Assembly: GCA_023663725.1 (NCBI GenBank)
Contig: JAMPGX010000006.1
Location: 62,001-126,000, forward strand
Length of the DNA: 64,000 nt
Direction of reading: 5' to 3'
From: a bacterium
GTDB taxonomy: Bacteria; Bacillota; Clostridia; Lachnospirales; Lachnospiraceae
This document shows positions 11,025 through 37,363 of this stretch, one piece after another. A program made the translations under genes and the position numbers. The notes under the pieces are model-generated. The model was not told where the DNA came from. It saw nothing but the letters and a program-made list of their open reading frames with translations, and ran no database searches. The stretch's first letter is position 1; the number at the start of each line of letters is the position of its first letter.

Positions 11025-12626
11025 TTAATCCATATCCAAAGACACGTTGCGAATACTTTCCGCCTGATAATAGTACTTCGCAAGAATCCTCTCTATCCCT
11101 ACTCGATCACCTGGTGAAAGCTGCACAAGCTCTCTGGTCAGTGAACCATAGGGACCAATCGCGCCATCTCTAAAAGCCGGAACCTCTACCTTCACAGTAT
11201 AAACCGGTGTCTGCTGAGGCTTTCCGTTTATATAGAAAACATTCTGACATTCGACTACACAAGATTTTGTGGGCGCTATAACCGTTTCAAGCACCAATGC
11301 ATCCTCCACAATGGATGTTGTATCCTGCCCTACAAAAGTTATGTTGGAAGGCTTACTGTCTACATCCAAAACAGCAAAAAGAGAGATATGGTATTCTTCT
11401 TCTCCCCTCCCGCCATAGCCCAAACCAAACTCACCGTTATCATAGGTCAGATAAGCCGACCAGGAAAAAGCAATTTCATCATCATACACTCCATGCAAAC
11501 TAATCACAAGACAGGAGCAACCAAATTCTTCAATTACCTCCTGATATTTTGCTCTGTCTATCACAAACTCAGCCAATGGCAGTACCTCTGCTGATTTAAT
11601 TGATGAGCGATCCGCCATATATGTGCATTGTGAAATCATATCTATTTCGCCAATATCTGAATACCCATCAGACACTTCGCTTTCTATCAAAACATCAAGG
11701 TCTTCCGCATCGCCCCAACCCTCGTTAAAGACATAAAATTTCAGCGTATTGCCAGTAACCGCTGCATCCAATATAAGCACTGGCTCTTCTATCGGCTCTA
11801 AGTCCAGAATACGCATGCGCACATCTTCTACAACGGAATCCTTCTCCCCCTCATTACGCAAACCGCTCACAATGGAAAATGCCTTTTTAACTTCCCTATA
11901 AGTTTGTTTTACAAATGGAACATCCTCGGCAGACGTATAATAACCGGCCGCCGTATATGGCTGTATCTTAGAAAAATATACTTTTCCTATTCTGCTATTT
12001 AGATTCCGATTGCATATGACAGAAATTGCAATGGAGCATAAGAAAATAATTGCAACCGCAACGCAAACTACTTTTTTTGCGGAAAATCTTTTGCCCGTAC
12101 TCTCCCGACTCGTAATCTCCAGCTTAACACATACTTCACTTTCAACATATTCATTTATTCTCTTCAACTGCTCCGTATCCAGCTTCGCAATATCTCTCGC
12201 CAAGTCCTTAAAACACCATATATCACGCTTGACGTCAAACTGAAAAATACCTTTTGTATCAAACGGATTTCTATGCTTCGTTTTATCACTTAACAGCAGG
12301 ATAACCAATCTTCCAGATTGACTATACAACTCATTTTCTATAAACTTATCTATCGTCCTCTGTATTTTTTCTCGCTCATGATCTGCCGTTACCTGTATAT
12401 AGATTCTTTTATCCTTATCAACCAAATCATATGCCGGCGTGTTTTGGACCTCGTGGTTCTTATTTACCAATTGATATCCGTACATCAGATTCAGCAGGCC
12501 GCAAACAAAGTCCTCCATCAATAGATTGATATCCGTCAGACCATTGATATCACACATTTCAATGTAGGATTTGAGCTGAGATAATCTGAGCGTTATATTT
12601 TTAATGTATTTTTCTCTCTGCAGCAT
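11025..12626 (-). CDS. SMEK-domain protein with one membrane span and a large outer region
   Basis: A 533-residue protein. Residues about 1-165 match the SMEK domain (LKSYIEMCDINGLTDINLLMEDF, GLLNLMYGYQL, YDLVDKDKRIYIQVTADH), found in predicted bacterial conflict proteins. A strong hydrophobic span lies at about 178-200 (VVCVAVAIIFLCSIAISVIC). The remaining 330 residues are beta-rich with segments such as LKFYVFNEGWGDAEDLDVLI. The domain would be cytoplasmic and the rest outside. It is followed at 19 bases by the lipoprotein gene. Its base composition and its place behind the HerA/SIR2 operon suggest it is part of the accessory island. The role of SMEK is stated from memory and is not experimentally firm. 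Confidence 0.72.
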   Translation of the reverse strand: MLQREKYIKNITLRLSQLKSYIEMCDINGLTDINLLMEDFVCGLLNLMYGYQLVNKNHEVQNTPAYDLVDKDKRIYIQVTADHEREKIQRTIDKFIENELYSQSGRLVILLLSDKTKHRNPFDTKGIFQFDVKRDIWCFKDLARDIAKLDTEQLKRINEYVESEVCVKLEITSRESTGKRFSAKKVVCVAVAIIFLCSIAISVICNRNLNSRIGKVYFSKIQPYTAAGYYTSAEDVPFVKQTYREVKKAFSIVSGLRNEGEKDSVVEDVRMRILDLEPIEEPVLILDAAVTGNTLKFYVFNEGWGDAEDLDVLIESEVSDGYSDIGEIDMISQCTYMADRSSIKSAEVLPLAEFVIDRAKYQEVIEEFGCSCLVISLHGVYDDEIAFSWSAYLTYDNGEFGLGYGGRGEEEYHISLFAVLDVDSKPSNITFVGQDTTSIVEDALVLETVIAPTKSCVVECQNVFYINGKPQQTPVYTVKVEVPAFRDGAIGPYGSLTRELVQLSPGDRVGIERILAKYYYQAESIRNVSLDMD

Positions 12627-12733: not shown

Positions 12734-13306
12734 TCATTCGATTAAAATTGGCGGTTCCGTATAGAAATCAAACAAACCATTTTCATTTATACCGCTCTTT
12801 CTGACGGTTTGCTCATATTTACGTCCTAAAACGTCTTTACATTCATATATGTAATATTCGTCGTCTTTTAGAAGCGGTACAAATATTCTAAATTCTTGAT
12901 TTCCTCCCAGACAAAAATGTTGATCCCATTTTAAAGTTTTACTTTCATTCTTTACAATATAGCCTTTAATATCACATGCCGCATATTTACCAAAATTAGA
13001 TAAAAAAGTATATACTATTTTTTTATGCTCATCTATTTCGTCTACTCGAAAATACAAATATGGCCTAAATTCCATTTTCAAGTCTTCTTGCCTAACTTTT
13101 TCATTATTTTTGATTTCCAGATTAACAGTAATATATGTTGTAAAAGCACCAATTAATGCACCAATATAGCCGCCAAAAAATCCGGCCCATCCTTCATTAG
13201 AAACAGATGAATAAACTCTATTTCTAAATACCACTAATTCTAATACGATTGGAATAATAACTGCAACAATAAAGATAGGTATTAATAATTTAACTTTCCG
13301 TCCCAT
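12734..13306 (-). CDS. Small membrane protein with two spans, unknown function
   Basis: A 190-residue protein. Two hydrophobic segments near the N-terminus (LLIPIFIVAVIIPIVLELVV and GWAGFFGGYIGALIGAFTTY) are followed by a short coiled-coil linker and a beta-rich cytoplasmic domain of about 110 residues. The GWAGFFGGYIGALIG phrase is typical of small membrane proteins found near mobile or defence genes, but no named family was recognised. The start at 13306 is chosen for AAGGATGAT just upstream; an earlier ATG at 13366 lacks a ribosome site. It lies 123 bases after the HerA gene in the same direction. Confidence 0.65.
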   Translation of the reverse strand: MGRKVKLLIPIFIVAVIIPIVLELVVFRNRVYSSVSNEGWAGFFGGYIGALIGAFTTYITVNLEIKNNEKVRQEDLKMEFRPYLYFRVDEIDEHKKIVYTFLSNFGKYAACDIKGYIVKNESKTLKWDQHFCLGGNQEFRIFVPLLKDDEYYIYECKDVLGRKYEQTVRKSGINENGLFDFYTEPPILIE

Positions 13307-13428
13307 GCGATCATCCTTCCTATGATTTATTGAAACTTTTTCTGAGTCTATAACAATTTTTGGCATGGTTGAACGACCGTTCTACTTCTATGCGATCCGC
13401 AATGCCTTCATATTTGAAAATTAAACTC

Positions 13429-14781
13429 TCAATATAAATGTACCTTGCAGTTTATACTGTTTTTCAGATAATCACTGACAATAATGCACTCCCCAATTTT
13501 TAACTCAGGAATAACTTTTTTATATATGTCATCATAAAAATTTGCATTTGACATGATATAATCAACATCATCCGGATTAGCCAGATTAAACGATACAATG
13601 CTTCCACACTGGGATAAAGTCGTGGGATCGAGATAACGCGGCCGCTGACTCAGCAACACAATATGAAGACCCAGCTTTCTACCCTCTCGCGCGATGCTGT
13701 TAATCACATCCTTGCAAAAGGAGCTTTTCGTACTAGGGATATAATTATGGGCTTCTTCAAGAAAAATGACAATCCTGTTGGGAACCTCTTCCCCCTCTGG
13801 CAGCATAATATAATTTTCACGGCGGTAATTCAGTAGCTGATTAAGGTACAAGTATATTAAAATTTCCTGTTCCTCAGAGGATAACTTCTGCATGTTAAAA
13901 ACATATGACTCTTTGGGAATCACATTTGTTTTTGCACCAATTTTCAAATCTACATCTCTTAGTTTCTCACACAGGGAAGCTAGGTAACTGCTTCGATCAT
14001 ATGCCTTTCTGCCAGAATAATCCACAACCTCCTTAGGCTTATAGAATTCCATTACTTTATCCGCCAGTTCCCTTGTTTCTATTGTTTTGGGCATTACTAT
14101 TTTATCCGTAACAGCCTTTAACAATGAAATCTCCGAATTGTTCAGGCGCAAAATCTTTTTTATCAGCTCCATATCCAGGGGAATAGAAAACCTTGTGGCA
14201 TCTATTTGTTTCGCATTTCTGATATTGATGTATTCATTGGTGGGGGTAAATACCATATATTGCATAGATATATTGCTTAATACAATTCTTGTAAAATTAC
14301 TCTTACCCTGCCCACTGCGACCGATCACGGCCATATGTGTCGTTAGAAGCTGCCGAAAATCCAGCCATACCGGAACATCCTCTCTCTTCTTCAGGTGCCC
14401 GATCTCCTGTGTGCCTTCCCTCTGGATGATTCCATGGGCAATAGCAATCTCTTCTGCCGAGGCTTTCACCACCTTACTTCCTGGAAGCGCTATATACCAA
14501 TAGTCTTCATATATTTCCTGAGTTTCATCGATGCTCGCTATGGAAACTGCATCTGCAACATAGATATTATACTTGCTGTAATCGTCACCCTCACCGATAT
14601 ATCTCACAAAATCGCTCTCAGCCAAACGCTTGTTGACCACTCTTACACTGCGAATCCGGTATATAGTCTTACGGCCATCATGCTCAATTTTTGCATAGTC
14701 TGTTTCTATTGCTCCTGAGGAATAAAAAGTCATTTCCTGAACGCCGCTTCCCGATGCTACGATTCCCAGTAAATTACTCAT
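13429..14781 (-). CDS. HerA/FtsK-superfamily hexameric ATPase (DUF87-like)
   Basis: A 450-residue ATPase. The N-terminal ~110 residues fit a HerA-type barrel. The Walker A motif GRSGQGKS is at about 154-161, Walker B RIVIFLEEAHNY at about 336-347, and the sensor/arginine region IAREGRKLGLHIVLLSQRP at about 362-380. Proteins of this kind form hexameric DNA translocases. In anti-phage systems they pair with a SIR2 NADase or a nuclease. Here the gene is directly downstream of a SIR2-HD fusion and one unknown gene, overlapping the latter by 8 bases (GGAG ribosome site), so the products are very probably made together. No NurA-like nuclease was recognised beside it. Confidence 0.88.
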   Translation of the reverse strand: MSNLLGIVASGSGVQEMTFYSSGAIETDYAKIEHDGRKTIYRIRSVRVVNKRLAESDFVRYIGEGDDYSKYNIYVADAVSIASIDETQEIYEDYWYIALPGSKVVKASAEEIAIAHGIIQREGTQEIGHLKKREDVPVWLDFRQLLTTHMAVIGRSGQGKSNFTRIVLSNISMQYMVFTPTNEYINIRNAKQIDATRFSIPLDMELIKKILRLNNSEISLLKAVTDKIVMPKTIETRELADKVMEFYKPKEVVDYSGRKAYDRSSYLASLCEKLRDVDLKIGAKTNVIPKESYVFNMQKLSSEEQEILIYLYLNQLLNYRRENYIMLPEGEEVPNRIVIFLEEAHNYIPSTKSSFCKDVINSIAREGRKLGLHIVLLSQRPRYLDPTTLSQCGSIVSFNLANPDDVDYIMSNANFYDDIYKKVIPELKIGECIIVSDYLKNSINCKVHLY

Positions 14782-15577
14782 ACTTCTTTTTCTCCCCTTC
14801 AATATAATTCTCGCAATCCGCCAGAATCGCCGGTAATCGAGTTTTCTCCGAGCCCTTTCCCCCTGTGATTGGCCATGCCTCCATTCCCTCAAATTGCATG
14901 AATACTTTTTGAATATGTTCCTTTTCCTGGTCTAATGTATCCTTTTTCAACATCTGGCTAAACAGGTTTATCCTGATTGGATAAATATCTGTATCATCAT
15001 AAGAGCAATAATACGTCTTCAGCATGGTGACTCCGTCATCATCAGGATATGGGCCTAATATCTTCCCTCGATATTTATCCTGAAACAGAAGATGTAGATC
15101 ACTCTTTGGGGGTACAGAATAATGTTCTATATAGTTTCCCATAAACGATGCCAAATGATAAGAGACAAACATAATATGAAGCCTCTGCATGGGTAATCCC
15201 AGATATCCCAATCTTCCAATAATTTTTTCAGACTCAAACTCATCTCGTATTAGAAAAGTCAGATCATCCTCCGGGTACTCACGCACCTTATCCAAAATAA
15301 TCGTACAAATATATTCGGAAATAATTCTCTCCTGAGCTGCCCGAGAACGTTTCTGCATTTCTTGGTAAAGACTATTCTTCTTTTCCAGAAACATATAGTC
15401 TGTCGCAATGTCACTACTACTGATCTGGAAATCAGTAGCACTTTGCATTGTTTTTACTTGTTCGCCTTTTTCCTCATATATAGCTATGGGATTGTAAGTG
15501 ATACTCCCCCGCACCGATATCTCATTGGCAGACGGTGTAGGCGTAAACAAATAGGAAATTCCAAACCATCGTTCCAT
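14774..15577 (-). CDS. Uncharacterised 267-residue protein of the SIR2-HD/HerA operon
   Basis: I do not recognise a family. The protein is soluble with no signal peptide or membrane span. It opens with a beta-rich part (FGISYLFTPTPSANEISVRG), has a helical centre (EKKNSLYQEMQKRSRAAQER), then an acidic stretch (YPEDDLTFLIRDEFESEK) and a C-terminal part rich in aromatic residues. Its gene begins 3 bases after the SIR2-HD stop, with the ribosome site inside that gene's end, and overlaps the HerA gene by 8 bases. That tight packing argues for an obligate partner, for example an adaptor or a highly diverged nuclease in the position where NurA normally sits. The function is unproven. Confidence 0.75.
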   Translation of the reverse strand: MERWFGISYLFTPTPSANEISVRGSITYNPIAIYEEKGEQVKTMQSATDFQISSSDIATDYMFLEKKNSLYQEMQKRSRAAQERIISEYICTIILDKVREYPEDDLTFLIRDEFESEKIIGRLGYLGLPMQRLHIMFVSYHLASFMGNYIEHYSVPPKSDLHLLFQDKYRGKILGPYPDDDGVTMLKTYYCSYDDTDIYPIRINLFSQMLKKDTLDQEKEHIQKVFMQFEGMEAWPITGGKGSEKTRLPAILADCENYIEGEKKKYE

Positions 15578-15580
15578 CTC

Positions 15581-18307
15581 TCACTGCTCCTTTTTACCTG
15601 CCAGCTCTTTCTTCAGCATATTGATTGCATAATTGCAGGCGACATCATCATTTCCAATTCTAAACACATGAAAGATAACTTTTTCCTCTTCCCTTTTATT
15701 ATTTGCCGAATATTCCTGTAAACCGATTTCAGCCCGGCTATTTTGATTGACCCACAATTCTTTTTTCCCACGGGGAATCAGTATCATCTCCTGTCCGCAG
15801 TCCGTTCCATCAATCCGACTATACGCCTGTCTTGATGAGGGAGAAGAAAAATATTTGGTCGGCGTATAAATATCAATCAATATCGTGCCGGGATAATTCA
15901 AAATGATTTTCTTCCTCGCCGCATTTAATTGCTTATAAGTAGCATTAGATACCAACTCATCCAATTTATCATCCTGCACTGGCGAATAATCATAATCCTC
16001 GCAAGAATCATCCGTCTGTTCATATTCACTACCCAAGAGCTGACTGTACATATACTTTAATATCCTGATCTCTTTGGGTTCAGCCGATCTACTTTTCTTC
16101 GCGTGAAAAACTAAATTCATACATTGCCTGATACTACTCTTTACTTCTTCACTGATCGACACAGACAAATCTTTCTTACTCTTTATATCATAGTCCCCGT
16201 CATCCCCAATCATATTGTATAAATCCTCAATCGCCATCAGAATATGGTAACTTCCCAGATCTTCGCTGATTCCTCCATCCTTCTTCCAGACAGAGGAATC
16301 ATTATACTTTTGAACAAAATACGTTGTAATAATATATTTTACCGCCGCTTCCAGAAAACGTATTTTAGCGTCATAATATAATTCTTCATACATACGTGCT
16401 CTTTCGTCTAAGAGACGAAGGGCATACCATGCCGATTTGCCATCCAAGGCAATCAATCCCTCCTGTGTAATATAGGCATCCTTTAACAGCTCTGTCAGGA
16501 ATTCCTCTCTTGTCAGTGCCAGACTTTTTTTGGCATTCTCCGCATCTGTAAAAATATATGCGATCTTATCCGCATCAATCGAACTGTTCATTATGGCATC
16601 CATATAACTTACGCCATAGTTTCCCTCTATACAACCAATTACCTCTTTGGTTTTAACATTATATTTCTTCAGAATTTCTCTCAATTGACACTCGTCATTA
16701 TCCACCAAACCCTCAATGATAATCTTAGTGTAATGACCATGCTTAAAGCTTTGTGTCTCACCTGCCAAGTGCCAGGACAGTTCGTCAAATACATCCTCCA
16801 GCAGATGAGAAAACGGCAGATGTCCACAATCATGCAGCAATCCTGCTGTATAGATCAGAACTTTCTCAAAAGGAGACTCCTTCTTGTTGCTGTTTTGACA
16901 TAATTGTTCATACATCTTTACGGCAATATCCGCCACTTCAATAGAATGATGCCATCTTTCATTTTCTTCCTCGGACTCCAGCCAATAGGATTTCAATCCA
17001 AGCTGAGAAACAGAACGCAATCTATTAATCTCCGGCATTTTCTCCAATGTGCGCTTCAACTGTTCCTGATAGTCTGGCTCCAGCACAATTTCCGGCGTAG
17101 GCTCCTGCCGTTTCTTTTTAGCCAGAGAATTGAGCTTTTGTGTCCCTTTTAAGGCAGTGGTGATATAAGCACAGCTTTCCAGATGACTTTCCTTCACCAC
17201 TTTATCAATAATATTGGAATGTCCTCCCTTTGCTTTGTCTGATAGATCATTTATGTCCAAAAGGGGAATCTCTCTCTCCTTAATCAATTGCAAAACAAAC
17301 TTTAACAATACATCATCCCAGTTACAGCTTAGTCCCACTGTAATAACCGCCGAGATCTTCGTAGAAATATACCGCCAGATAGCCGTGATAATCTCTCTCG
17401 TATTGTAATCCTTCTCATAAGTTCCGGGCATCGTCATGGTGACGGCCAACTTACTCTTACAAAACTCACATTTCAGATCGGCCATATTCCGCAAATTACG
17501 CTTGGTAAACGCTGGAACCTTTTTCCCAGTTTCCGGACAATATCCCTCCCCTTTCTCACCAGAACAAAACAGCCAGAAGACATCTCCATTAGCATGAAGG
17601 ACACACTGATTATATGGCGGATCCTCAAAGGGACTTTTCCCACGGCGGTTTCTCTTAAAATACTTTTCTGCCAGTCTTTTGTCAAAAATAGGAATACCAT
17701 TTCTGATATCTCCTGTGTTGATCAGGGCAAAGTTTATATAATTGTCAAAATTAGCGGACAGACAAAAGGCTCCCAGTGTATCATACATTTCGGCAATTTG
17801 CTCAGACGCCCTTGAAGTCTCTGTATTCAAGGCGCCATATGTTTTCCCATCGTGCTCTATGCACTTAAAAAAAAACCACTCACAATACTGTTCCCAGATC
17901 TCTTTGATCTCCTCATCAGCACTGCTTTCCAGAAAGGAAAATACTTTTCCAAGCCACTCCCGGTCAACATGGCGTAAGTCTTCTTCAACAGGGTTAAATA
18001 ATTCCTTAAACTCTCTGAACTTGCTCCCCGTCGCAGTTGATTGAACAACACATTCTCTGAGTTTCCAGATCATTTGACTCAGACAGGGAAGCCCCTCGGG
18101 TAAATACTCCCCCTGTGGCTCGTCATTCTTTATGGCGACATCGCTGGCTGATGCGCCAGCTCCGACAATGATCAGAGGGATCTTCCCCTTTTTCCTCTCC
18201 TCAAGCATATAGTCCACCAGTTCTTCCAGCTTGTACTCAAATCCACTGTCCCCGTCAGACTCCTTTACAACGGCATTCTTCCACTGTTCAAAAGAAAACT
18301 TCTCCAT
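15581..18307 (-). CDS. SIR2-like NAD-binding domain fused to an HD (dGTPase-like) phosphohydrolase
   Basis: A 908-residue fusion. The SIR2 part spans about 40-350: nucleotide loop GAGAS at 49-53, SANFDN at 184-189 (the usual T/S-x-N-Y/F-D site), a candidate catalytic His at 238 in VLHANGD, and a sirtuin-like zinc set Cys248, Cys257, Cys280, Cys283, closing with TVGLSCNWDD. The HD part spans about 430-700: WHHS at 452-455, HDCGHLPFSH at 492-501 and the late Asp in SSIDADKIAY near 580, the pattern of dGTPase/SAMHD1-type enzymes. The last 200 residues are unassigned. SIR2 proteins of defence systems deplete NAD and HD dNTPases deplete dNTPs; one chain may do both. The start at 18307 has GGGGGTGG upstream. 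The HerA gene lies two genes downstream. Confidence 0.87.
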   Translation of the reverse strand: MEKFSFEQWKNAVVKESDGDSGFEYKLEELVDYMLEERKKGKIPLIIVGAGASASDVAIKNDEPQGEYLPEGLPCLSQMIWKLRECVVQSTATGSKFREFKELFNPVEEDLRHVDREWLGKVFSFLESSADEEIKEIWEQYCEWFFFKCIEHDGKTYGALNTETSRASEQIAEMYDTLGAFCLSANFDNYINFALINTGDIRNGIPIFDKRLAEKYFKRNRRGKSPFEDPPYNQCVLHANGDVFWLFCSGEKGEGYCPETGKKVPAFTKRNLRNMADLKCEFCKSKLAVTMTMPGTYEKDYNTREIITAIWRYISTKISAVITVGLSCNWDDVLLKFVLQLIKEREIPLLDINDLSDKAKGGHSNIIDKVVKESHLESCAYITTALKGTQKLNSLAKKKRQEPTPEIVLEPDYQEQLKRTLEKMPEINRLRSVSQLGLKSYWLESEEENERWHHSIEVADIAVKMYEQLCQNSNKKESPFEKVLIYTAGLLHDCGHLPFSHLLEDVFDELSWHLAGETQSFKHGHYTKIIIEGLVDNDECQLREILKKYNVKTKEVIGCIEGNYGVSYMDAIMNSSIDADKIAYIFTDAENAKKSLALTREEFLTELLKDAYITQEGLIALDGKSAWYALRLLDERARMYEELYYDAKIRFLEAAVKYIITTYFVQKYNDSSVWKKDGGISEDLGSYHILMAIEDLYNMIGDDGDYDIKSKKDLSVSISEEVKSSIRQCMNLVFHAKKSRSAEPKEIRILKYMYSQLLGSEYEQTDDSCEDYDYSPVQDDKLDELVSNATYKQLNAARKKIILNYPGTILIDIYTPTKYFSSPSSRQAYSRIDGTDCGQEMILIPRGKKELWVNQNSRAEIGLQEYSANNKREEEKVIFHVFRIGNDDVACNYAINMLKKELAGKKEQ

Positions 18308-18402
18308 TTTTCCACCCCCGCATATCGCAAGCCTGCTTGCGATACTGCACCAATAAAGAGTTTGAAAGTTTACTTTCAAGCTTCCCTCTCTTTTGCATTC
18401 TT

Positions 18403-20223
18403 TTACACTGGATTTTTCTGCAAATGTCTCTTACATTTTCTGCCTTCCTCATCATCTATTTCTGCACGCATTTGCAACAATTCCCTCTTTTCTTCAGAAG
18501 ACCTATTTAAAGACAGAATAAACTGCAGTTTCATATGCGAGACGGATTTATTTTTTAAAATATTCATTGCCTCCCGTGCATTGAAATATTGTTGACAATA
18601 GAATGCATAATCCCTTGCTTTAAACGAATCTGTCTCCTCCTGTCTATAATATTCCTCTACTATATCCTGTGTATGGAACGTTAATCTCTCTATCGCCTTT
18701 TCTACATCCAAGTCCGTAATCGATTTACCATGAACATTTCGAATGGCAAAACCCCAGGTATTGCGGCGCATATCTTTTTCCAGTTCGATCTCTTCCACTT
18801 CCATATTGCTAAATAAAATATCAATTTCCTCTTTTCCCAACAGCAAATATCCGCTTTTTCCAAAAGGCCTTTCTCCCACAGACAACGTTTTACGTTCGCT
18901 AAATACCAGTACTCCGTTCTCTTTTAAGAGCGATAGTATCAGATTAAGTTCTTTGCACCACTCGTCAACTCCTATTTCATGCAGTACATTGTATAGCAAC
19001 ACTATATCCATCTGTCCTTTCAGTGCAGCGACGGCCTCCTCCGACTCAAACTTTTTGCCAAATACAAATTCACCGCTTACAAATTTGTCTGTCACTTTCA
19101 CATATTTATCATAGACATGATATTTTATCTTGGGCCATTCTACAGCTGGTCTTGATTCATAGTCCATCTTCATACACATGCCGATCCGTGCCTCGCCAGC
19201 CCCAAAGTCCAACACCTGTAGCTCTTCGCCGCCATTATGCTCTAACAGCTCCTTAACCACTTGTTTCATCTTTAAATACTGCGGATCATCCGCCTTTACA
19301 CGCTCAGAAACGGTCGGACGCTGGAAACACTCCGCCATATATTCTGCATAGGACCACGAGTCTACAGAGACTAATAACTCAGAGATGGAGTGATTGCCAT
19401 CTTTTCCATATACCAGTGTGTTCATAATATCCTGATAAACCGTTCCACTGACTTTTTTCAACTCTCCCTGTTCAAAATAACATATTTCCTCAAACTCAAA
19501 TTCGGGAAGCAGAAAAACCGAATGAGTGGCAATAAAGACACAACAGTTCACGTCCTTCAGATTTTCCCTGAACATCTTAAACAATTCCTGCAACACCGCA
19601 GGATGCAGATGGGTCTCAATCTCGTCGATCAACAACAAAGACGGTTTGTTTACATTGGCCTGAATATACAATAAGGCCAACGAAAAAATTATTATATTGC
19701 GCTCTCCGGGAGACAAGACCTCTACCTCCTGTGCCAATATATTAGCCTCACCTGTACTGGAATTGCTGATATAGATTTTCCCATTGTTGATATGTAATGT
19801 CCGTTCCAACATTTTGCTCAAATATCTATTTATTCCCTCCAGCAACCTCTCCGCACGTTCTGAAAAGTTGCTGCATAAGCCCTCCAATGAAACAATAAAT
19901 CTGGGCAGTTGATCCTTTATCTTGGCAAAAAGGTCTCCCTTGGCTTCCCTTGATAGAGGCTGATTAAAAATCAAATTATCGGTAATATTTTCCGACTCCT
20001 CAGAGGGGGAATCCGCCTTTTCCACGCAATCCAGAAAAATAATATCACACTCTCCCCGCTTCTCGGCCACATCTCTCAGAAATCTAAGCATTCTGGTCTT
20101 ACCGCTTCCGTTTTTACCGATGATGAGATTAAAATGACAAAAGGAGCTCCGCTTAAATACTTTTAAATAATTATTTTTCAATAATTCCTTCTCGTTCTGA
20201 CAATTTTCCAATATTTTCTTCAT
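18403..20223 (-). CDS. ABC/OLD-type ATPase fused to a methyltransferase-like domain
   Basis: A 606-residue fusion and first gene of the SIR2-HD/HerA operon. The ATPase half has Walker A GKNGSGKT at about 36-43, signature LSPGERN at about 170-176, Walker B SLLLIDEIETHLHP at about 195-208 and the His switch IATHS at about 231-235, as in AAA_21/OLD-like ATPases of conflict systems. From about 300 to 480 there is a Rossmann-fold methyltransferase-like region: LQVLDFGAGEARIG (SAM loop) and MDIVLLYNVLHEIG, followed by LKENGVLVFSER. The last 120 residues are helical. The ATG at 20223 has GGAG just upstream; an ATG at 20256 has no ribosome site. Plausible role: an invader-sensing ATPase controlling the downstream effectors. 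That role is inference. Confidence 0.85.
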   Translation of the reverse strand: MKKILENCQNEKELLKNNYLKVFKRSSFCHFNLIIGKNGSGKTRMLRFLRDVAEKRGECDIIFLDCVEKADSPSEESENITDNLIFNQPLSREAKGDLFAKIKDQLPRFIVSLEGLCSNFSERAERLLEGINRYLSKMLERTLHINNGKIYISNSSTGEANILAQEVEVLSPGERNIIIFSLALLYIQANVNKPSLLLIDEIETHLHPAVLQELFKMFRENLKDVNCCVFIATHSVFLLPEFEFEEICYFEQGELKKVSGTVYQDIMNTLVYGKDGNHSISELLVSVDSWSYAEYMAECFQRPTVSERVKADDPQYLKMKQVVKELLEHNGGEELQVLDFGAGEARIGMCMKMDYESRPAVEWPKIKYHVYDKYVKVTDKFVSGEFVFGKKFESEEAVAALKGQMDIVLLYNVLHEIGVDEWCKELNLILSLLKENGVLVFSERKTLSVGERPFGKSGYLLLGKEEIDILFSNMEVEEIELEKDMRRNTWGFAIRNVHGKSITDLDVEKAIERLTFHTQDIVEEYYRQEETDSFKARDYAFYCQQYFNAREAMNILKNKSVSHMKLQFILSLNRSSEEKRELLQMRAEIDDEEGRKCKRHLQKNPV

Positions 20224-20294: not shown

Positions 20295-20323
20295 ATTATA
20301 CACTAATAATCGACGAAATTCAA
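20295..20323 (-). promoter_or_regulatory. Promoter of the ABC-MTase / SIR2-HD / HerA operon
   Basis: On the minus strand TTGAAT (20318-20323) and TATAAT (20295-20300) are 17 bases apart, 72 bases from the ATG at 20223. Confidence 0.72.
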
Positions 20324-20477: not shown

Positions 20478-20674
20478 AAATATAAATTCGTACTCCCATC
20501 TATCAAGGTACGATATCTCAGCCCCGATTTCATCGGGAATGTATAAGGGCGATTCGTCCCTGTTTTACCGACTTTTGACCAGCAGAATAAGTAGCGGTGC
20601 AGCTTATATTGCGTCTTGCTTTGTGCTGCTCTCTTGTTTTTATTCCGCAACCACACAACAGAAAGGAACTCCAC

Positions 20675-21773
20675 ATGACAGACGCGACAGACAAAAACCA
20701 GACTTTAATCAACAATTCCCGACTTCGGGACAATAGCAGCAGACTCATTTTCTCGGACAATATCCTAAGTTCACAGTTCCTGCGGGACTATGCGGATATG
20801 GATATCCTGCGACATATACAGCCCGAGGATATTGAGGATGTGTCGGAACGCTATGTTCCCCTCTACAGCACAGAGCGGGAAAGCGATACCGTCAAAAGGG
20901 TGAATATTTCCAGATACCTGAACCGGACAGAGGAAGAAAAGGATAGGTTCAATCCTCTGGGCCTTCCCCTCTATGTCATTTCTCTAGTTGAACACAAGAC
21001 AAAAGTGGAGTATAATGTAGTCATGCAGCTACTGCGATACATGGTTCATATCTGGGAAGACTACGAGAAAGAGATAAACCGGCTGCATCCCCATATCAGC
21101 AGCCGGAAGGATTTCCGATATCCGCCAATCCTGCCCATCGTGTATTATGAAGGAGTCACTAAATGGACGGCTCCGCTGGATCTGGCGGACCGGATTCTCT
21201 GTGGGGAACTGCTGGGCAGACCTGTTGGCAAAAGGCGACGAGATCTCTCTGGCCATGCTGATCAACAAGATCCAGACTCCGGAGGATATGTCCGCATTTG
21301 TCGGACTTTCCGGGGAACAGGTGGACGGGATACTTAAGGATACCCCCGATCATCTGCTGGATATCCTGTCCAAAGTACTCCGTGCGCTACTCTACAATAT
21401 GCATCTGCCGGAGGATGAGGTAGAGGATGCCGTCGCCAGGATAAAGGAGCGCAAGATGGGAAGATTGTTTGAAAATGTGACGATGGATATTCAGGCGGAG
21501 AGACGCAATACGGCCGAGGCGCGGGCGGAGCTGAAAACGATCTGCCAGAAACTGGATTCTGCACAGCAGGAATTGAGTCTGGTACAGCAGGAACGGGACT
21601 CTGTACAACAGGAACGAGACTGTATCCAGCAGGAACGGGATATTTATAAACACATTCTCCGTATGACAGCCCAGCACCGTGCCGATATCGATATCCTTGC
21701 ATCTTTAACAGAACAGTTCAACCTGACGAAAGAACAGGCAGCGGAGAGATTGAAACAGGCGTTTGAAGATTGA
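20675..21773 (+). pseudogene. Broken Rpn-family nuclease gene (internal deletion and frameshift)
   Basis: The first ~185 codons closely match the intact Rpn gene at 925-2136, including DMDILRHIQPEDIEDVSERY, LPLYVISLVEHKTKVEYNV and PPILPIVYYEG. Near 21222-21230 the frame is lost: after LCGELLG about 20 codons present in the intact copy are missing, and reading resumes in another frame at LLAKGDEISLAML. The rest of the protein then continues to 21773, ending with a QQERD-type coiled coil instead of the NEAEEAR repeats. The ATG at 20675 has AAAGGAACT upstream and the promoter still looks sound, so decay may be recent. Either fragment could in principle be made but not the whole nuclease. Confidence 0.85.
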
Positions 21774-23065: not shown

Positions 23066-23611
23066 CTATTCTCCCCACTTTAAAATGGCCAACGCTCCTA
23101 ACGTAAACCCATCCGTAATTTTATGTTCTTTTATCATTAAGCTAATCTCTTCTCGATCCAAAAAGCGCCTGTCTACAATTTCATCTACAGCTTCATCAAA
23201 TTTCAACGCATTGCTTGTTTCTTCCTTTGATAATTTACCGTAAAAAACAAATGCTTTCTGTGGTGTCAACCCAGGTACTGGATGAAATTCCCCGATTTTC
23301 TCTAAAACCACATGACACCCCGTCTCTTCTTCAAGTTCTCGAATGGCTCCCTCTGCTGGCATTTCCCCTTTATCTAAACCTCCCATTGGTAACTCCCAAG
23401 AATTTCCCCGAATTGGATAACGATACTGATTAACAAACAAAATTTTCTTATCGCTGTTCTCAACAATTATGATTGCAGAATCACTACGCATTACAACGCT
23501 GTATATTCCTTTTCGTCCATCTGTCTCCGTTTCATATTCAATAACCTTCATCCATGGGTTTTCGTACTTCATTGTTTCACTCAACACCTCAAACATTCTG
23601 TTTTGTTTCAT
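23066..23611 (-). CDS. Nudix hydrolase (ADP-ribose pyrophosphatase-like)
   Basis: A 181-residue hydrolase with an intact Nudix box, GGLDKGEMPAEGAIRELEEETG, at about 80-101 (it fits G-x5-E-x7-REUxEExGU). The preceding QYRYPIRGNSWELPMG and following PVPGLTPQKAFVFYGKL are typical of ADP-ribose or nucleotide-sugar pyrophosphatases. The start at 23611 is chosen because AAAGGAG precedes it; it lies inside the end of the upstream chimeric gene and the two overlap by 23 bases. It probably removes or adjusts a nucleotide-linked compound connected with the dehydrogenase encoded next. Confidence 0.87.
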   Translation of the reverse strand: MKQNRMFEVLSETMKYENPWMKVIEYETETDGRKGIYSVVMRSDSAIIIVENSDKKILFVNQYRYPIRGNSWELPMGGLDKGEMPAEGAIRELEEETGCHVVLEKIGEFHPVPGLTPQKAFVFYGKLSKEETSNALKFDEAVDEIVDRRFLDREEISLMIKEHKITDGFTLGALAILKWGE

Positions 23612-25619
23612 TTTTTCCCTTTCTCCTTTCATAGAAATAATGTATTAGTTGTAGCACTGCAAAATTACCAACAAATCCTATCGCTGCATTCATGTAAACA
23701 ATTTCCGTCTGTATGTTCTGACTAATTGAAAAAAAAACAATTCCTACAGCAAGCATTGCAGCATCAATTAAGCTTTGTATAAGAAGTGTATAATAATCTG
23801 CTCCATGCCTCTTAGTTGAAAAAATTTTATTTTCATACAATTTTGAAGGAATTACAGATACAGACTCAAATAATTCTGTCTGGATAGAAGATAAAAAATT
23901 ATATGTTTGTCTGTAATTTTTTCTCTGACACAAATATAATATATAAAATAAACTGCCCAATAAACAAGCAAATCCAAACATTATCCCAAGAACAAAATAT
24001 AATATTTCCTTTGTTACATTGTTTTCAAAAATTTTTAAACACAATGTCGCCAATGCTGCCAATGCACCTATAATAGTTAAATAATGACCGAACCAACGAT
24101 CTCTAACTTCTTGTTGCAACTTAACTTGTTCCAAGAGTACATCAAGCAAATTGCTCAAAAGACAATTTCTCTCATAAAATGTCATCTTGTAAGGCTTAGC
24201 TTCATATTCATTCTGTAATACCGTATGATGCCCATATTCCTCATGCCTTATAATATATTCCTTTTTCGCATGATTAGTTGCGTTCATTGATATCATACAC
24301 TTTGCTTTCCCGTTTTTTATTTTGGGATTGCAATGCCCTTGATGAGAACAGCTCCTGCAATGTTCAGGCGAAAAGATAGCAACAACCTGCCTTGCATTTT
24401 TCCTATATTGACATTTTTGGGGAGAATAGCCTCCAGCACATTTTTCAAGTTTTGTGCCATCTTCACTGAACTGAAAACCGTCAAAAATGTTTGGGTTAGC
24501 TTTTTCGGTCGCTGCAGTAGTCACAAGGACATAATCCCTCTTAGAGACAGGTTCCTCATCTTTGCTATTCCCATAACTACCGTCATTTACCAAGGGTACC
24601 ACATCCTCCGATATTTCGGTCTCTGTAGCGCTTTCCTGCAAGAACTGACCTTCGTTATAGAAGTTCTGTTCACCTTGGTTATAGATCGACACACCCACAG
24701 ATTCATCTATATCTGCGCTTCTTACTTGATGAAACTCCCCCACCTTATCACAGTAAGTCACCTTGTACTTCGATGAATCCTGAAACTTTGCGGAATTTAT
24801 AGTACCATCTTCTTTTGTGCGCAAACATCGTTTCCCATCTTCTACAATTGTCTGTTCTGACATGCACCGAATAAAGAGCTCATACTCAAGAATATTTTCA
24901 AATCCACAGCCGCACACTTCAAGCAAGGCATCACTATCATTAATAATCTTCTGAATTACATTATCCAGTCCCCCTTCTTGCTGGTAGTAAAATACTCTTT
25001 TAAATTCATCTGGGTCAATATAAACTCTTAGGGATTCTGTTAATAGCCCAGGATGCTCTTTTTCAAGGTACACGCAGAACTTAGCAATGCACGTGTATAT
25101 CAATTCCATCCTGCTAAATAATCTAATGCTTTCCACAATTCTTCCGGAATCCATACATTGAATTCGTCTGTTAACGCCTGCCATTTTGACAATCTTTTGA
25201 TTTAGGTCATTCACACAACTGCCGTAAAGATCAATATTGTAGATTCGTTCATAATCATAACACTGTTTACGAAAACGGCTCAAATCTTTACCAGACAAGG
25301 GCTGTTCCACAAAACCGGTTGTGTGAAGTGCAAACTGAAAATGCAGGTCCAGTATAAGGTTTTCGACAACTTCAGCATCAGAATAACCAAAAAACTCCTT
25401 AATGATCAACGCCCCGACAATCACTCTGATCGGTACATCCGGCTGTAAATCCTTATTACCATAAATAGTTAAAAAACGGCTTTCATCTATAGCCGGAAAT
25501 ATCTCACTGGCAAAAACTTTTGCCCAGGACCGTTCCAGAACCATTTGTTCCTTTTCAGTCACCCCTGATAAACTATCTGTGTCCATTAACTGTTGGCAGA
25601 GTTCTTCCTCAAAAGGCAT
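23589..25619 (-). CDS. Chimera: truncated IS1182-type transposase joined in frame to a four-span membrane protein
   Basis: A 676-residue open frame made of two unrelated parts. Residues about 1-480 are an IS1182/DUF772-type transposase: PDVPIRVIVGALIIKEFFGYSDAEVVENL, QPLSGKDLSRFRKQCY, CMDSGRIVESIRLFSRME and the CRSCSHQGHCNP cysteine cluster. Its C-terminal catalytic part is missing. From about residue 485 the sequence changes to MTFYERNCLLSNLLDVLLEQ followed by two pairs of hydrophobic segments and a charged tail, with much lower GC. The membrane part could still start alone from an ATG at 24185. The ATG at 25619 has GGGGGATG upstream. Most likely an insertion placed the transposase in frame with a resident membrane gene that belongs with the Nudix and dehydrogenase genes. 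Confidence 0.7.
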   Translation of the reverse strand: MPFEEELCQQLMDTDSLSGVTEKEQMVLERSWAKVFASEIFPAIDESRFLTIYGNKDLQPDVPIRVIVGALIIKEFFGYSDAEVVENLILDLHFQFALHTTGFVEQPLSGKDLSRFRKQCYDYERIYNIDLYGSCVNDLNQKIVKMAGVNRRIQCMDSGRIVESIRLFSRMELIYTCIAKFCVYLEKEHPGLLTESLRVYIDPDEFKRVFYYQQEGGLDNVIQKIINDSDALLEVCGCGFENILEYELFIRCMSEQTIVEDGKRCLRTKEDGTINSAKFQDSSKYKVTYCDKVGEFHQVRSADIDESVGVSIYNQGEQNFYNEGQFLQESATETEISEDVVPLVNDGSYGNSKDEEPVSKRDYVLVTTAATEKANPNIFDGFQFSEDGTKLEKCAGGYSPQKCQYRKNARQVVAIFSPEHCRSCSHQGHCNPKIKNGKAKCMISMNATNHAKKEYIIRHEEYGHHTVLQNEYEAKPYKMTFYERNCLLSNLLDVLLEQVKLQQEVRDRWFGHYLTIIGALAALATLCLKIFENNVTKEILYFVLGIMFGFACLLGSLFYILYLCQRKNYRQTYNFLSSIQTELFESVSVIPSKLYENKIFSTKRHGADYYTLLIQSLIDAAMLAVGIVFFSISQNIQTEIVYMNAAIGFVGNFAVLQLIHYFYERRKGKNETKQNV

Positions 25620-25950
25620 TGTGGCATCCCCCTCTCCAACCATATTTAATAAATATCAAAATATGGATCGAAATACTGCTAAAATGTAACCACATAACTT
25701 TTGCTTTGTCTATATATTTTATTTTAACTTTTTTAATTAATAATTTCAATACTTATATATCAGAAATTCCTCTTTTTTAATTACATTTTTGTTCTTTCCC
25801 TACTTTTTTAGGTAGAATGTACAAATACATTTCACAAAACGCTATGCTATTTCCAAAGAAAACAAAAAAACTTTTACTTAGTGTTTTTGTATGCCAACCA
25901 TCATTTAAGGCAGCATTCTAACCATCTATTTTGAGCGCATAAAACCCACA
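25620..25950. other. AT-rich gap with no gene seen
   Basis: About 330 very AT-rich bases lie between the transposase chimera and the GT52 gene. No open frame, repeat end or convincing terminator was found. It must hold the promoter of the chimera, if it has one. Confidence 0.5.
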
Positions 25951-26940
25951 TTAAAAATTGTACATATTAATGTTATTTATATCAATTGTTTTACGTTTAA
26001 GAAATTCATTATCCAGATTAATTTTATTTAATGCTCTAGAAGTAATAATGGCGCTGGTACATATACCTATGGCATATTCAAAATCCAATCCAATAATGTT
26101 TAACAGTTCACTTGGAATATCTTTTCCAAATATCTTGACATTAATAAAATTATACTTGCTATTATCTCTTGGATGTATCTTAAGGCATACTTTTCCATAC
26201 TGCGAATAAAACTCACATATTCTTTCATATATTGTAATTTTATCTTTCTCCTCTATATACCTATCTTCAGAAAGTGGCTGCGTATAAACAACAACCTTGT
26301 AATTTCTTAGATCATATACACTATCTTTGTTGCTTTCATTACTTAAAAAAACATCGGTAAGTACACGTACAATAAAATTCTTTTTTATAAAGCAATTAAT
26401 ATCTAATCTTATCAATTTATGTTGATAGCTTTCTGGATAGTACTGCGGTTCTACAACATATATCTGCTTTATTTTTCTATCTTTACCAAAGTCTGTCTTA
26501 AGCCCCAAAAATTGCTTTAATTTTCTTTTTGTAGTACTTCCAACTGAATTTGCATAGCTGGCGGCTCCATCCTCAATTAATGTTATTTCCTCTGCTTTTT
26601 TAAAATATACATAAGAATCCCAATATGTTGCTTCAATATTCCACCTAAAATTAACTAAATAAAATGTCTTTTCATTCAAAATTTTTTGGCATTTTTTTAT
26701 TATTTTATTATCCTTATAAATATCCAGAAGTACTTTTTTCCCCTTTTTTTCAACATTTATTATACAAAATCCATTGCTGCGACATCTATCAATTAATAAC
26801 TTGCGTTCTCTATTATTTTTTAATGGTCCCCCTTTAAAAATTATTATACTATCATTTTTAATTCCGCCATTTAGCATGTAAATTATTGCAATCATTAAAT
26901 GATAAGGCGTATTACACCGAAAGATATATTTTTTAGACAA
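25951..26940 (-). CDS. GT52-type glycosyltransferase (sialyltransferase-like)
   Basis: A 329-residue transferase. IFRCNTPYHLMIAIIY at the N-terminus, the central TLIEDGAASY, VVVYTQPLSEDRYI and the CMP-binding-like KIHPRDNSKY are characteristic of family 52 and related polysialyltransferases, which move sialic acid from CMP-sugar to a glycan. That fits the CMP-nonulosonate genes a few kb upstream in the same operon. The start is a TTG at 26940 with AAAGGAG 9 bases upstream. It would act at the inner membrane on the growing repeat unit. Which nonulosonic acid it uses is not visible. Confidence 0.78.
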   Translation of the reverse strand: MSKKYIFRCNTPYHLMIAIIYMLNGGIKNDSIIIFKGGPLKNNRERKLLIDRCRSNGFCIINVEKKGKKVLLDIYKDNKIIKKCQKILNEKTFYLVNFRWNIEATYWDSYVYFKKAEEITLIEDGAASYANSVGSTTKRKLKQFLGLKTDFGKDRKIKQIYVVEPQYYPESYQHKLIRLDINCFIKKNFIVRVLTDVFLSNESNKDSVYDLRNYKVVVYTQPLSEDRYIEEKDKITIYERICEFYSQYGKVCLKIHPRDNSKYNFINVKIFGKDIPSELLNIIGLDFEYAIGICTSAIITSRALNKINLDNEFLKRKTIDINNINMYNF

Positions 26941-26967
26941 ATTTATATACTCCTTTTATTATGTCAT

Positions 26968-28485
26968 TTAATACTTTTTTCTCTTTTTTATTATTCTTTT
27001 CACTACTTTTATCATATTGAAAAAATTATCTCTATAAAATAAAATTGAACTTATTAAAGTCACAGATGTTGCTACAAAAAATATAACAAGTCCATAAGTG
27101 ATCCAGGTAAGCCAATCATCTATTGAACTGGGTAAAATAATTTTACCTATTAGAACAATGATCAAAACATTTGTGATTAGCCAAATGTTTCGCAAAAAAA
27201 ATGAAGATATTTTTCTAGTCGGCAACATATCTTTAGAGATATACAACGCATATTGAATAGTTCTAAAACAGTTAGCTACAAACGTGCCAATTACAACGCC
27301 TATTATGTCAAATTTAAATATCAACACAAAAGAAATAGTTAAATTTAAAACCGCCTCTAAGTATGCACCACCTTTTGTTTCCTTGTATCTTCCCGCTGCC
27401 TGAACTGCTGTAATATAAGGAGACCTTAAACAAAATACTGCTTCTGTAGCAGTAGCTGCAAATGCGTACAGCGGAACTATATAGTTGACATCTGTAACAT
27501 TCCTTGTATATATAGATATAAATGGAAGAATTAGCAAACCACAGCAGCTGAATAAAATGGAAACAAAAGCATATATAAAAAATTCGTACCATTCAAGATT
27601 TTTTTCAAATTTATTTATTTGATTTGATGCCCAAAGTTCTCCAAATGCCCCTTCAAGGCTAGTAGTAAACACATTCTTCAGCTTTCGGAGAGCAGAAAGA
27701 ACCAAAGAATATACGGCATATACTGATACAACATTTGTTGTCGTAAATAGCGTCAATAAAATAATATCTACTTTTTCATGAATTGTATTTGCTACAGCGC
27801 TTCCCATTACATCTTTTCTGTTTGCAAGTACCTTGTCATCCGAATTTATATCAGTAATAATTTTATATTTTTTTCTGACAATTCTATTTAGAATTATTGG
27901 ACTGGCTACAAAGCACATAGAACAGCCTAACTCAACAGCATAAATACTTTTTCCATTTATGATTAAAGCTATTGCTAAAGCAGTACTAACTACTTTAGAT
28001 ACGGAACGAAAAAGATTATATAAATATAAATCTTGATTAGCCGTTAAGAACATTTTATATGTAATTCCAAAAAAATATTCAGCAAATATGCCAAAGGCTA
28101 TTATTACTACCAGCAAAGCCGTTTGAATCCGCTCAAACTCTTTTATCACTATATACGGATATACGACCATCATTATCAGTGTATATAAGATAAATGCCTT
28201 AGCTACATTTCTCATATGCTTTTCTGTGGTTTTTAATACTATGCTAATTTCTCGAATATCCCCGACAGCATTAGCTTTATATATTGCCACTCTTGTGGCC
28301 CCATGTAATCCAAGGGCAAGAATAGAGATATAGTCTAAAAATTTTGTTATTGATACGATCAACCCATTATAGCTTGACCCATAATAAGCCAGTATATATC
28401 GCGGTAATAACAATCCACATGCCATCGCAACGATCTCATAGCAAAATTGAGCTAATGTATTTTGAAATGCCTTTTTTGTTCTCAT
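26968..28485 (-). CDS. Wzx-type polysaccharide flippase
   Basis: A 505-residue MATE/Wzx-superfamily transporter with about 14 hydrophobic segments, beginning QFCYEIVAMACGLLLPRYIL and YNGLIVSITKFLDYISILALGLHGA. It should move undecaprenyl-linked repeat units across the membrane for Wzy polymerisation. The C-terminus is strongly basic (KVVKRIIKKRKKY). It follows the TagF-like gene by 30 bases in the same operon. Flippases diverge widely, so substrate cannot be read from sequence. Confidence 0.85.
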   Translation of the reverse strand: MRTKKAFQNTLAQFCYEIVAMACGLLLPRYILAYYGSSYNGLIVSITKFLDYISILALGLHGATRVAIYKANAVGDIREISIVLKTTEKHMRNVAKAFILYTLIMMVVYPYIVIKEFERIQTALLVVIIAFGIFAEYFFGITYKMFLTANQDLYLYNLFRSVSKVVSTALAIALIINGKSIYAVELGCSMCFVASPIILNRIVRKKYKIITDINSDDKVLANRKDVMGSAVANTIHEKVDIILLTLFTTTNVVSVYAVYSLVLSALRKLKNVFTTSLEGAFGELWASNQINKFEKNLEWYEFFIYAFVSILFSCCGLLILPFISIYTRNVTDVNYIVPLYAFAATATEAVFCLRSPYITAVQAAGRYKETKGGAYLEAVLNLTISFVLIFKFDIIGVVIGTFVANCFRTIQYALYISKDMLPTRKISSFFLRNIWLITNVLIIVLIGKIILPSSIDDWLTWITYGLVIFFVATSVTLISSILFYRDNFFNMIKVVKRIIKKRKKY

Positions 28486-28515
28486 ATAATTGTCCAGCTC
28501 TATTTACAATATAAA

Positions 28516-29694
28516 CTAATTCATAACTCTATAAATTATTTCTGCGACCTGTTTACACGCATTTCCATTCTCATATGACTCAAGTAAATTCAAATGTTCC
28601 CCTGCTATTTTGGCAAAATCATAAAATTTCATATTTTTTATTGCATCACACAATGTTTCTATATTTATACATGGAATTCCAGGCCACTTACTGACAGGCA
28701 ATATAGTTCCACCTTGATTATTTTCAAAATCATCAAGATCAGGAACATATAATAAACAAGGTTTTTCCGTTAATGCATAGTCCCATATAGATGATGAATA
28801 ATCTGTAATAAGAATATCTGTTGCACACAACAATTCCTGCATATCTGGATAACTTGTTAGGTCTATAATATTTTGAAAACTATTATTTTTGTTACAGACT
28901 GTAACATGAGCTCTATATAAGATGGTATGATCAATCTGATGTTTGTCTAAATATTTATTGACACTACTTATATCTAACAGGTGTTCAGAATTTCCTCTTT
29001 TATTTGATCCTGCACTTCTCCAGGTAGGTGCATATAATATCGTGAGCCCATGTATATTATATTTTTCTCGTACTTTTGCTCTAATATATGTATATTGCTT
29101 ATTGTCAAAAAAGATATCATTTCTTGGAGAACCACAATTAACAATGTTTCCGTGATAATTAAAAGCCCTGACTATTCCATATTCTGCATTCATTTTTGAA
29201 CTGGCCAGAAAATAATCAATCTTAGAGCACTCCGCTCTTTCTCGCCATTTTGTCACCCTTATTTTTGATTTATTATAGTTATGAGCCTCTCTTCCAACTA
29301 TTTTATATGCTCCGCCTCCGTGCCATGTCTCAATAAAAATTTGCCCTTTTCGTTTGGGAATATATATATCAGGTCTACAATTGGAAACAATAACTTTGGC
29401 AACACATTGATAATACAACCATTTAAGAGATTTATATTTAATATACTTCACTCCTTTCATTTTTTCTGGGAATTCTTTTATAGACCAAATATATTCATAA
29501 TCCATCTTAGCGTCATCTTTTAAGTAATTCATTATATACATAGGATTGTCCGATACAGCTTTTCCATAGAAGCTCTCAAACAATATACTATTTTTTTTAA
29601 TTGGAAAAATAAATAATATTCTTACAAGGCATCTTATCAGTTCTCTATACATGATAATAAAATAGCTTCCAGCCAAGTAACACAACTTTTTCAT
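28516..29694 (-). CDS. CDP-glycerol:poly(glycerophosphate) glycerophosphotransferase-like (TagF/TagB family)
   Basis: A 392-residue member of the Glyphos_transf family: IFIETWHGGGAYKIVG, FLASSKMNAEYGIVRAFNY, GSPRNDIFF, ILYAPTWRS, and ILITDYSSSIWDYALTEKPCLLY are all family landmarks, including the conserved His in TWHG. These enzymes add glycerol- or ribitol-phosphate to teichoic acid or capsule, so the repeat unit may carry a polyol phosphate. The IspD-like gene at 33703 could supply the CDP-polyol. The ATG at 29694 has AAGGAG 11 bases upstream; another ATG at 29727 abuts the previous stop. A peripheral membrane location is expected. Confidence 0.87.
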   Translation of the reverse strand: MKKLCYLAGSYFIIMYRELIRCLVRILFIFPIKKNSILFESFYGKAVSDNPMYIMNYLKDDAKMDYEYIWSIKEFPEKMKGVKYIKYKSLKWLYYQCVAKVIVSNCRPDIYIPKRKGQIFIETWHGGGAYKIVGREAHNYNKSKIRVTKWRERAECSKIDYFLASSKMNAEYGIVRAFNYHGNIVNCGSPRNDIFFDNKQYTYIRAKVREKYNIHGLTILYAPTWRSAGSNKRGNSEHLLDISSVNKYLDKHQIDHTILYRAHVTVCNKNNSFQNIIDLTSYPDMQELLCATDILITDYSSSIWDYALTEKPCLLYVPDLDDFENNQGGTILPVSKWPGIPCINIETLCDAIKNMKFYDFAKIAGEHLNLLESYENGNACKQVAEIIYRVMN

Positions 29695-29727
29695 TTGATA
29701 CGCTTCTCCTTTTTCATGCTGTGCCAT

Positions 29728-30909: not shown

Positions 30910-30945
30910 CCGTAAACCTGTTCCTTTCCACAGAAGGTTTGCTTT

Positions 30946-31827: not shown

Positions 31828-31956
31828 TATTAAGTCTCCTTCCTTGCCACTATATACTTAGAGATTCACATAATCATCAGTTGATTGCTGCATCTATAAA
31901 TTAAAAAGTTTCGGCAAATATTAATTCAATTAATTGAATAGCTAACTATATAGGCC

Positions 31957-33072: not shown

Positions 33073-33136
33073 TTTTACCTCTTAATATGCAAGCTGGGCC
33101 TCTTTTTTTCCAATTCGCATACTCTGTTTTGCTTAA

Positions 33137-34470: not shown

Positions 34471-34540
34471 CAAATCATCTCCGTTTATTATGTTAAAATA
34501 TATATTTACTGCCTAAACTGATCTCGTGAGCATTTCCAGA

Positions 34541-35698: not shown

Positions 35699-35702
35699 CA
35701 CT

Positions 35703-36818: not shown

Positions 36819-36849
36819 ATTCTATTTTCCCGTTTTATTTTGGTGTTAC

Positions 36850-37344: not shown

Positions 37345-37363
37345 TTTTGTATCACCTCGTCTT

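Follow-up and report, generated by a model that had tools for sequence, protein, structure and literature searches.

Do four adjacent genes on the minus strand of a contig from a gut bacterium of the Lachnospiraceae constitute a single defence system and, if so, how is it related to the systems already described? The question is raised by a stretch of 64,000 nucleotides (GenBank assembly GCA_023663725.1, contig JAMPGX010000006.1, positions 62,001 to 126,000; hereafter, the window), whose open reading frame (ORF) listing contains four co-directional ORFs, here named A, B, C and D, that a preliminary description had proposed as a candidate defence operon. Gene A encodes an ATPase-methyltransferase fusion, B a protein with a SIR2 and an HD domain, C a protein without a family match and D a HerA-type ATPase. 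The best reading of their sequences is that this cassette represents an undescribed variant of HerA-centred defence. More specifically, A to D may form one transferable anti-phage or anti-mobile-element cassette around a HerA motor, in which the HD domain, as a deoxynucleoside triphosphate (dNTP) hydrolase, would be the effector and A would sense infection or gate the complex. We consider this proposal, which is made by analogy with other HerA systems, to stand about an even chance of being correct.

Conservation and rarity of the gene set

The cassette is a conserved unit whose genes have been kept together as proteins. A metagenome-assembled genome from another genus of the family (locus L047) carries all four genes, ordered as in the window, beside different neighbours, and therefore we consider the four genes to be a unit. 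The L047 gaps, by listed starts, are 46, -4 and -29 bases, and the identities to the window copies are 37% for A, 56% for B, 52% for C and 49% for D. At these identities, changes in each of the four genes are fewest at codon position 2 and most frequent at position 3, which argues that the genes have been maintained as proteins. The preliminary description had looked for support in the recurrence of the gene set in unrelated genomes near defence genes. The set does recur in another genus and with other neighbours, but the one further genome belongs to the same family.

The features of the window copy are as follows.

20295 to 20323, minus strand: promoter-like site TTGAAT-17-TATAAT upstream of gene A (consensus match only)
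18403 to 20223, minus strand: gene A, a fusion of an ABC-type ATPase and a class I methyltransferase (Pfam, PADLOC, alignment with L047)
18308 to 18402, no strand: A-B gap of 95 bases, mostly a repeat copy (genome-wide repeat matches)
15581 to 18307, minus strand: gene B, with a SIR2 domain, a SAMHD1/dGTPase-like HD domain and a C-terminal part to which no domain was assigned (to residue 908; Pfam, profile comparison)
14774 to 15577, minus strand: gene C, 267 amino acids, without a family match, conserved in L047 (52%; library scans, alignment)
13429 to 14781, minus strand: gene D, a short HerA-type ATPase with an 8-base overlap with C (DUF87, PADLOC)

The spacings from these coordinates are 95 (A-B), 3 (B-C) and -8 (C-D) bases, which agrees with the earlier account of four co-directional genes except that the first gap had been given as 96. 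Gene A starts at ATG 20223, with GGAG ahead of the start codon. The listed ORF of B comprises 932 amino acids from TTG 18379 and begins within a copy of an intergenic repeat that occurs throughout the genome. Because this extension is repeat sequence, and because ATG 18307 agrees in position with the L047 copy in the alignment, we set the start of B at ATG 18307. The repeat has at least 35 matches in the window's genome including itself, many of them partial (40 of 62 candidates were scored); because it lengthens ORF B in frame, start calling could go astray here. The single promoter that had been proposed for the four genes is plausible, with a consensus match upstream of A, rather than proven, because the scanned region holds 31 such sites compared with 23.4 in shuffles (standard deviation 5.1), that is, barely more than shuffling produces.

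The cassette is also rare, with full-length B in 2 of 378 genomes of the family, its own included. A B profile matched five of these genomes: two over the full length, namely the window's genome and G1330, which belongs to another genus and agrees with L047 in contig number and coordinates, and three in the HD part only. A genome collection (84,980 species by its description) was scanned for B with two 7-residue patterns drawn from the motif alignment. This yielded 168 pattern stretches, two of which contained a B relative: L047, at full length, and an HD protein in Prochlorococcus (L048). Searches with the single B sequence recovered it at full length in itself only (1 of 61, 1 of 392 and 1 of 391 genomes), and the remaining matches were to the HD part or to the repeat in its own genome. 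The genome samples overlap, and two genomes are a lower bound on the occurrence of the cassette. Six records of the plasmid collection and nine of the phage collection match B, all in the HD part only. Of three plasmid records examined, two, from Listeria and Staphylococcus, each hold a full HD protein close to argS, and the third, from Acaryochloris, holds a short HD ORF. Single-protein pattern scans, with patterns placed off the motifs, found no relative of A to D in viral contigs and none of B in genome contigs. In viral contigs, scans with two-copy alignments found no B or D relative, and a B motif scan likewise found none.

Domain content of the four proteins

The HD domain of B covers approximately residues 415-690 and is matched by Pfam HD at E 8e-8 (Pfam matches in A to D were considered down to E 1). 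Among PDB sequences, its best solved relative is 2o6i (2.7e-9), and SAMHD1 chains are among the next. When 11 of 21 HD relatives are aligned with the two B copies, each copy retains H454, H492, D493, D580, R451, H496, H501, E504, H523, Y584, D588 and R636. According to the accessible part of the source on CloA, the metal ligands of this enzyme are H69, H117, D118 and D242, and its catalytic dyad is H126/E129 (PMC12265719). The counterparts in B, assigned by alignment and by spacing from the HD motif, are H454, H492, D493 and D580 for the ligands and H501/E504 for the dyad, and all of them are present. The proposal that an HD domain shares a chain with SIR2 is borne out. The catalytic core looks competent, its handling of substrate may differ, and the HD domain of B is probably a dNTPase.

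The SIR2 domain, at approximately residues 45-350, was missed by the Pfam scan and was recovered by profile comparison. When the N-terminal part of B was searched against 398 genomes, the matches other than B itself were L042 (E 2e-6) and two weak ones. The L042 protein stands alone, is matched by SIR2_2 and aligns to residues 47-327 of B (BLASTP E 2e-12 in a single comparison; hhalign 89.8%). When a profile of six SIR2 proteins (L042 and L089-L093) was compared with the two-copy N-terminus of B, the hhalign score was 72.7, whereas the best of 100 column shuffles reached 27.8 and the reversed alignment 20.8; the SIR2 assignment made earlier thus withstands all 100 shuffles. A BLASTP comparison between the L047 copy of B and the SIR2 protein of L039, which is paired with HerA on a plasmid, showed no significant match.

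Is B, then, a dual effector that depletes both nicotinamide adenine dinucleotide (NAD), through SIR2, and dNTPs, through HD, with A as the sensor and HerA as the scaffold? The HD ligands and dyad are kept, as are GAGxS (GAGAS in B, GAGVS in L047) and SANFDN (N186) in the SIR2 part. The Asn and His-Gly residues of SIR2 domains are the catalytic NADase residues. The His-Gly motif reads H-A-N-G-D in both B copies, where the His column of the ungapped alignment holds Asn and the His lies two residues earlier, whereas a pattern scan found LHGS in five of six SIR2 relatives (L092 has no LHG match). Because the motif is altered in both copies, NADase activity of B is uncertain. Although Sir2-HerA is a known NADase, as stated in the available text of PMC12198126, we regard a dual effector as rather unlikely here. 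The working model given earlier, a sensor ATPase and a HerA scaffold controlling an effector of this dual kind, accordingly keeps its domains and the intact HD site but becomes doubtful on the NAD side.

Gene D is of the HerA type, as had been stated, with matches to DUF87 (E 6e-14) in Pfam and to the HerA models in PADLOC. The archaeal HerA model NF040937 matches nearly its full length at 94 of 800 bits, far under the cut-off, and solved defence HerA chains match in the C-terminal part. At E <= 1e-8, D is matched in 9 of 295 genomes of the order, own genome included (8 of the 294 others). Most partners at the eight other loci are of a defence type: the partner gene has a SIR2_2 match in five, is Cap4-nuclease-like (under the Pfam cut-off) in two and has no family match, with a kinase gene nearby, in one. 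A Paraburkholderia plasmid locus is likewise a SIR2 and HerA pair. At L081 (2567-7523), a HerA gene is grouped with a gene for a protein kinase-TPR protein and with two proteins that Pfam does not match, a context unlike that of SIR2 or Cap4. In a tree of 26 rows, D clusters with its L047 copy in a clade whose stem measures 2.45; nine of the ten non-NurA HerA rows group with this clade at 74/79. By this tree, D is a separate HerA lineage, placed beside and outside the Sir2-HerA branch and weakly on the defence side. In the plasmid collection, 571 records match D, none of them over more than 80% of its length; five of these records were examined.

Searched as a single sequence, gene C matched nothing in Pfam, PADLOC or NCBIfam and nothing among PDB sequences, and its best matches are weak (E 0.27 in PDB with a profile; E 0.053 in PHROGs for the L047 copy). 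The plasmid collection also contained no match to C. By eye, the order of motifs in its C-terminal half is NurA-like, and this resemblance would fit a DNA-end processing or repair module of the Mre11-Rad50-NurA-HerA kind, in which C would be the NurA-like component and HD would adjust dNTP pools. Three haloarchaeal plasmids, L036, L045 and L046, hold SMC-NurA-unknown-HerA operons, which the combination of an ABC ATPase with HerA resembles. A metallophosphoesterase gene precedes the operon in L045 and L046, and a conserved protein sits between NurA and HerA in all three. However, no SIR2 was seen in these operons, the rarity of the cassette is ill-suited to a repair role, and the relationship of C to NurA was rejected. 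PF09376 had no match at C in the window's genome, although 7 of 14 control genomes did give a match to it. When C was compared with a profile built from 12 NurA proteins, drawn from the 15 genomes with a match among 79, the scores were near chance (hhalign 0.5%; HMMER 1.8 and 0.2 bits), and 71, 18, 167 and 3 of 200 column shuffles reached the real score in four settings. The setting with 3 of 200 could seem suggestive, but its alignment differs from the supposed NurA motif pairing and hence is not claimed. We consider a repair module improbable.

Gene A is matched in Pfam by AAA_21 (E 5e-15) and AAA_15 and then by Methyltransf_23 (E 5e-7; 30.1 bits, cut-off 27); the L047 copy reaches 21.9 bits for Methyltransf_23, which is under the cut-off. 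Both copies share the motifs GxNGSGK, LSPGE and LLIDExETHLHP, which are Walker A, the signature and Walker B, and LDFGAG and LLYNVLHEIGVDEW, motifs of the class I methyltransferase. For A, the best 25 matches in PADLOC (of 134) and in NCBIfam were used, and among these the ATPase is near the PADLOC models for PDC-M01A, PARIS (AriA), HEC and Septu (PtuA). Both domains that had been described for A were thus found, but its description as an OLD-type sensor is an interpretation. A two-copy alignment search of viral contigs returned four partial ATPase matches. The ATPase also resembles plasmid ATPase genes, one of which adjoins an HNH endonuclease gene. Together with the 95 bases and the repeat that separate A from B, these resemblances might suggest two adjacent systems, a stand-alone Septu/PARIS-like ATPase next to a separate SIR2-HD, C and HerA system. 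However, A stands ahead of B, C and D in both genomes, and the gap in L047 is 46 bases, which makes such a division very improbable.

Genomic setting of the two copies

The GC content over the cassette is 0.36-0.42 compared with approximately 0.46-0.56 at 1-9 kb and 38-59 kb, as the preliminary description had indicated, and at 22-38 kb it is lower still, mostly 0.29-0.39. The IS66 remnant of that description was not recovered; the transposase domain found at 23589-25643 is DUF772. The ORF that carries it continues into a hydrophobic C-terminal region and looks composite or decayed. Instead of acting against phages, the cassette could serve an integrated mobile element as its stability or competition module. 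The low GC, the transposase domain and the genome-wide repeats nearby would fit this, but no integrase, relaxase or replication gene was recognised by eye in the ORF lists at either copy (no profile search was made for them), and we hold this to be the least probable of the explanations.

Downstream of HerA in the window, a co-directional protein of 210 amino acids (12734-13366) follows after 62 bases; it has hydrophobic stretches, no clear family and no PADLOC match. Beyond it lies a SMEK-domain protein (11025-12626; Pfam E 1e-39; PADLOC Argonaute-associated model E 7e-35), and no SMEK-like gene was noticed after HerA in the ORF listing of L047. Upstream of A, two overlapping plus-strand ORFs in different frames at 20597-21773, which had been called Rpn, are perhaps one frameshifted gene; a Pfam scan of the second ORF only gave no Rpn-type match. 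The genes of the low-GC block at 25951-37813 look, by their sequence starts, like those of sugar-acid and surface polysaccharide synthesis. A T-box leader (RF00230, 109.8 bits) lies at 63738-63994 on the minus strand. At L047, the upstream neighbours are GHKL kinase and receiver-phosphoesterase genes, and the ORF listed next on this strand beyond HerA resembles homoserine dehydrogenase by sequence. In this upstream region, at 165-2797, a protein without a clear family stands beside the receiver-calcineurin phosphoesterase fusion, and these are possibly further conflict genes.

Proposed mechanism and relation to known systems

We infer the defence function, the assembly of a complex, the roles of A and C and the identity of the killing domain from sequence and analogy. 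In the accessible portions of their descriptions, Sir2-HerA and HerA-DUF4297 are large complexes in which the partner on the HerA hexamer is activated by assembly: a SIR2 dodecamer sits on the hexamer in the former (PMC12198126), and two layers of six DUF4297 in the latter (PMC11291478). By analogy with both, D would form the usual HerA hexamer and pump DNA or turn over ATP, and B would dock on D. As in Sir2-HerA, the SIR2 part of B is the most likely point of contact, and C would serve as a linker or plug. Assembly would then switch on the HD domain, dNTPs would be hydrolysed and phage replication would stop. The ABC-type ATPase and methyltransferase of A would sense infection or gate the complex; the faster divergence of A (37%) fits a sensor. 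As a more tentative possibility, the sirtuin fold could have given up classical NADase chemistry and now serve as the platform on which an HD effector that destroys dNTPs is docked; the ATPase-methyltransferase fusion would be the gate, at which a modification or a small molecule is checked before the complex acts.

Several observations weigh against an HD-armed, HerA-centred defence cassette. Both B copies carry substitutions at six positions that do not vary among the HD relatives (11 of 11), namely 402 (D to E), 457 (G to E), 524 (E to G or A), 583 (D to A), 587 (R to T) and 593 (G to K). The placement of D in the tree has weak support (74/79), and the program issued a long-branch warning. 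The library scans gave no clue to the family or fold of C, and the cassette is found in two genomes of one family only. In addition, what follows the cassette downstream in L047 resembles housekeeping genes. Two neighbours per locus were compared with PADLOC, and the result was one strong match (SMEK), two weak ones for the L047 receiver-phosphoesterase and none for the other two. Because these are the only neighbour matches, a defence island around the cassette is not established.

HerA complexes have so far carried SIR2 or nuclease effectors, and the cassette would add a dNTPase effector on a HerA/SIR2 platform. If this is true, it would suggest that the HerA ring serves as a general engine for mounting different nucleotide-destroying enzymes. 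The cassette also adds a methyltransferase-linked ATPase and a fourth protein without a family match to the HerA scheme, and it offers a test of whether a SIR2 domain without the His-Gly motif has a structural role only.

The combination had been put forward as matching no named system, and this still holds for what was covered. No scanned family library (Pfam, NCBIfam, PADLOC-DB of 2023) names it, and the accessible text of papers on HerA systems (including PMC13174449, PMC12198126, PMC11291478 and PMC12265719) does not describe the gene set; this literature includes few subscription papers or preprints, and a named system could have been missed. According to the available part of its description, HerA-DUF4297 shares with the cassette a HerA that works with a partner effector (PMC11291478), but no Cap4/DUF4297 nuclease match was found in A, B or C with Pfam, or in B or C with PADLOC. 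The SAMHD1/YwfO-type dNTPases and the anti-phage dGTPases, including CloA of Clover as far as its source was accessible, share the HD metal ligands and the His/Glu dyad. In the cassette, by contrast, the HD domain is fused to SIR2 and carried with HerA, the six otherwise invariant positions are altered, and no nucleotidyltransferase gene was recognised. The HerA-NurA end-resection pair also combines HerA with an adjacent small protein, but C is not detectably a NurA. Septu (PtuA) and PARIS (AriA) share the ABC-type ATPase core of A. Their partners are an HNH protein (PtuB) and a Toprim protein (AriB), respectively, whereas A is fused to a methyltransferase, and A to D have no HNH or Toprim match in Pfam. 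Sir2-HerA, also called Nezha, likewise encodes a SIR2-domain protein with a HerA ATPase, and five of the eight HerA loci inspected in the order are such pairs. However, Sir2-HerA is a two-gene unit with a stand-alone SIR2, whereas the cassette has four genes, two of them further conserved genes; its SIR2, in which the His-Gly motif is altered, shares one chain with an HD dNTPase-like domain, and its HerA is shorter and forms its own branch outside that of Sir2-HerA.

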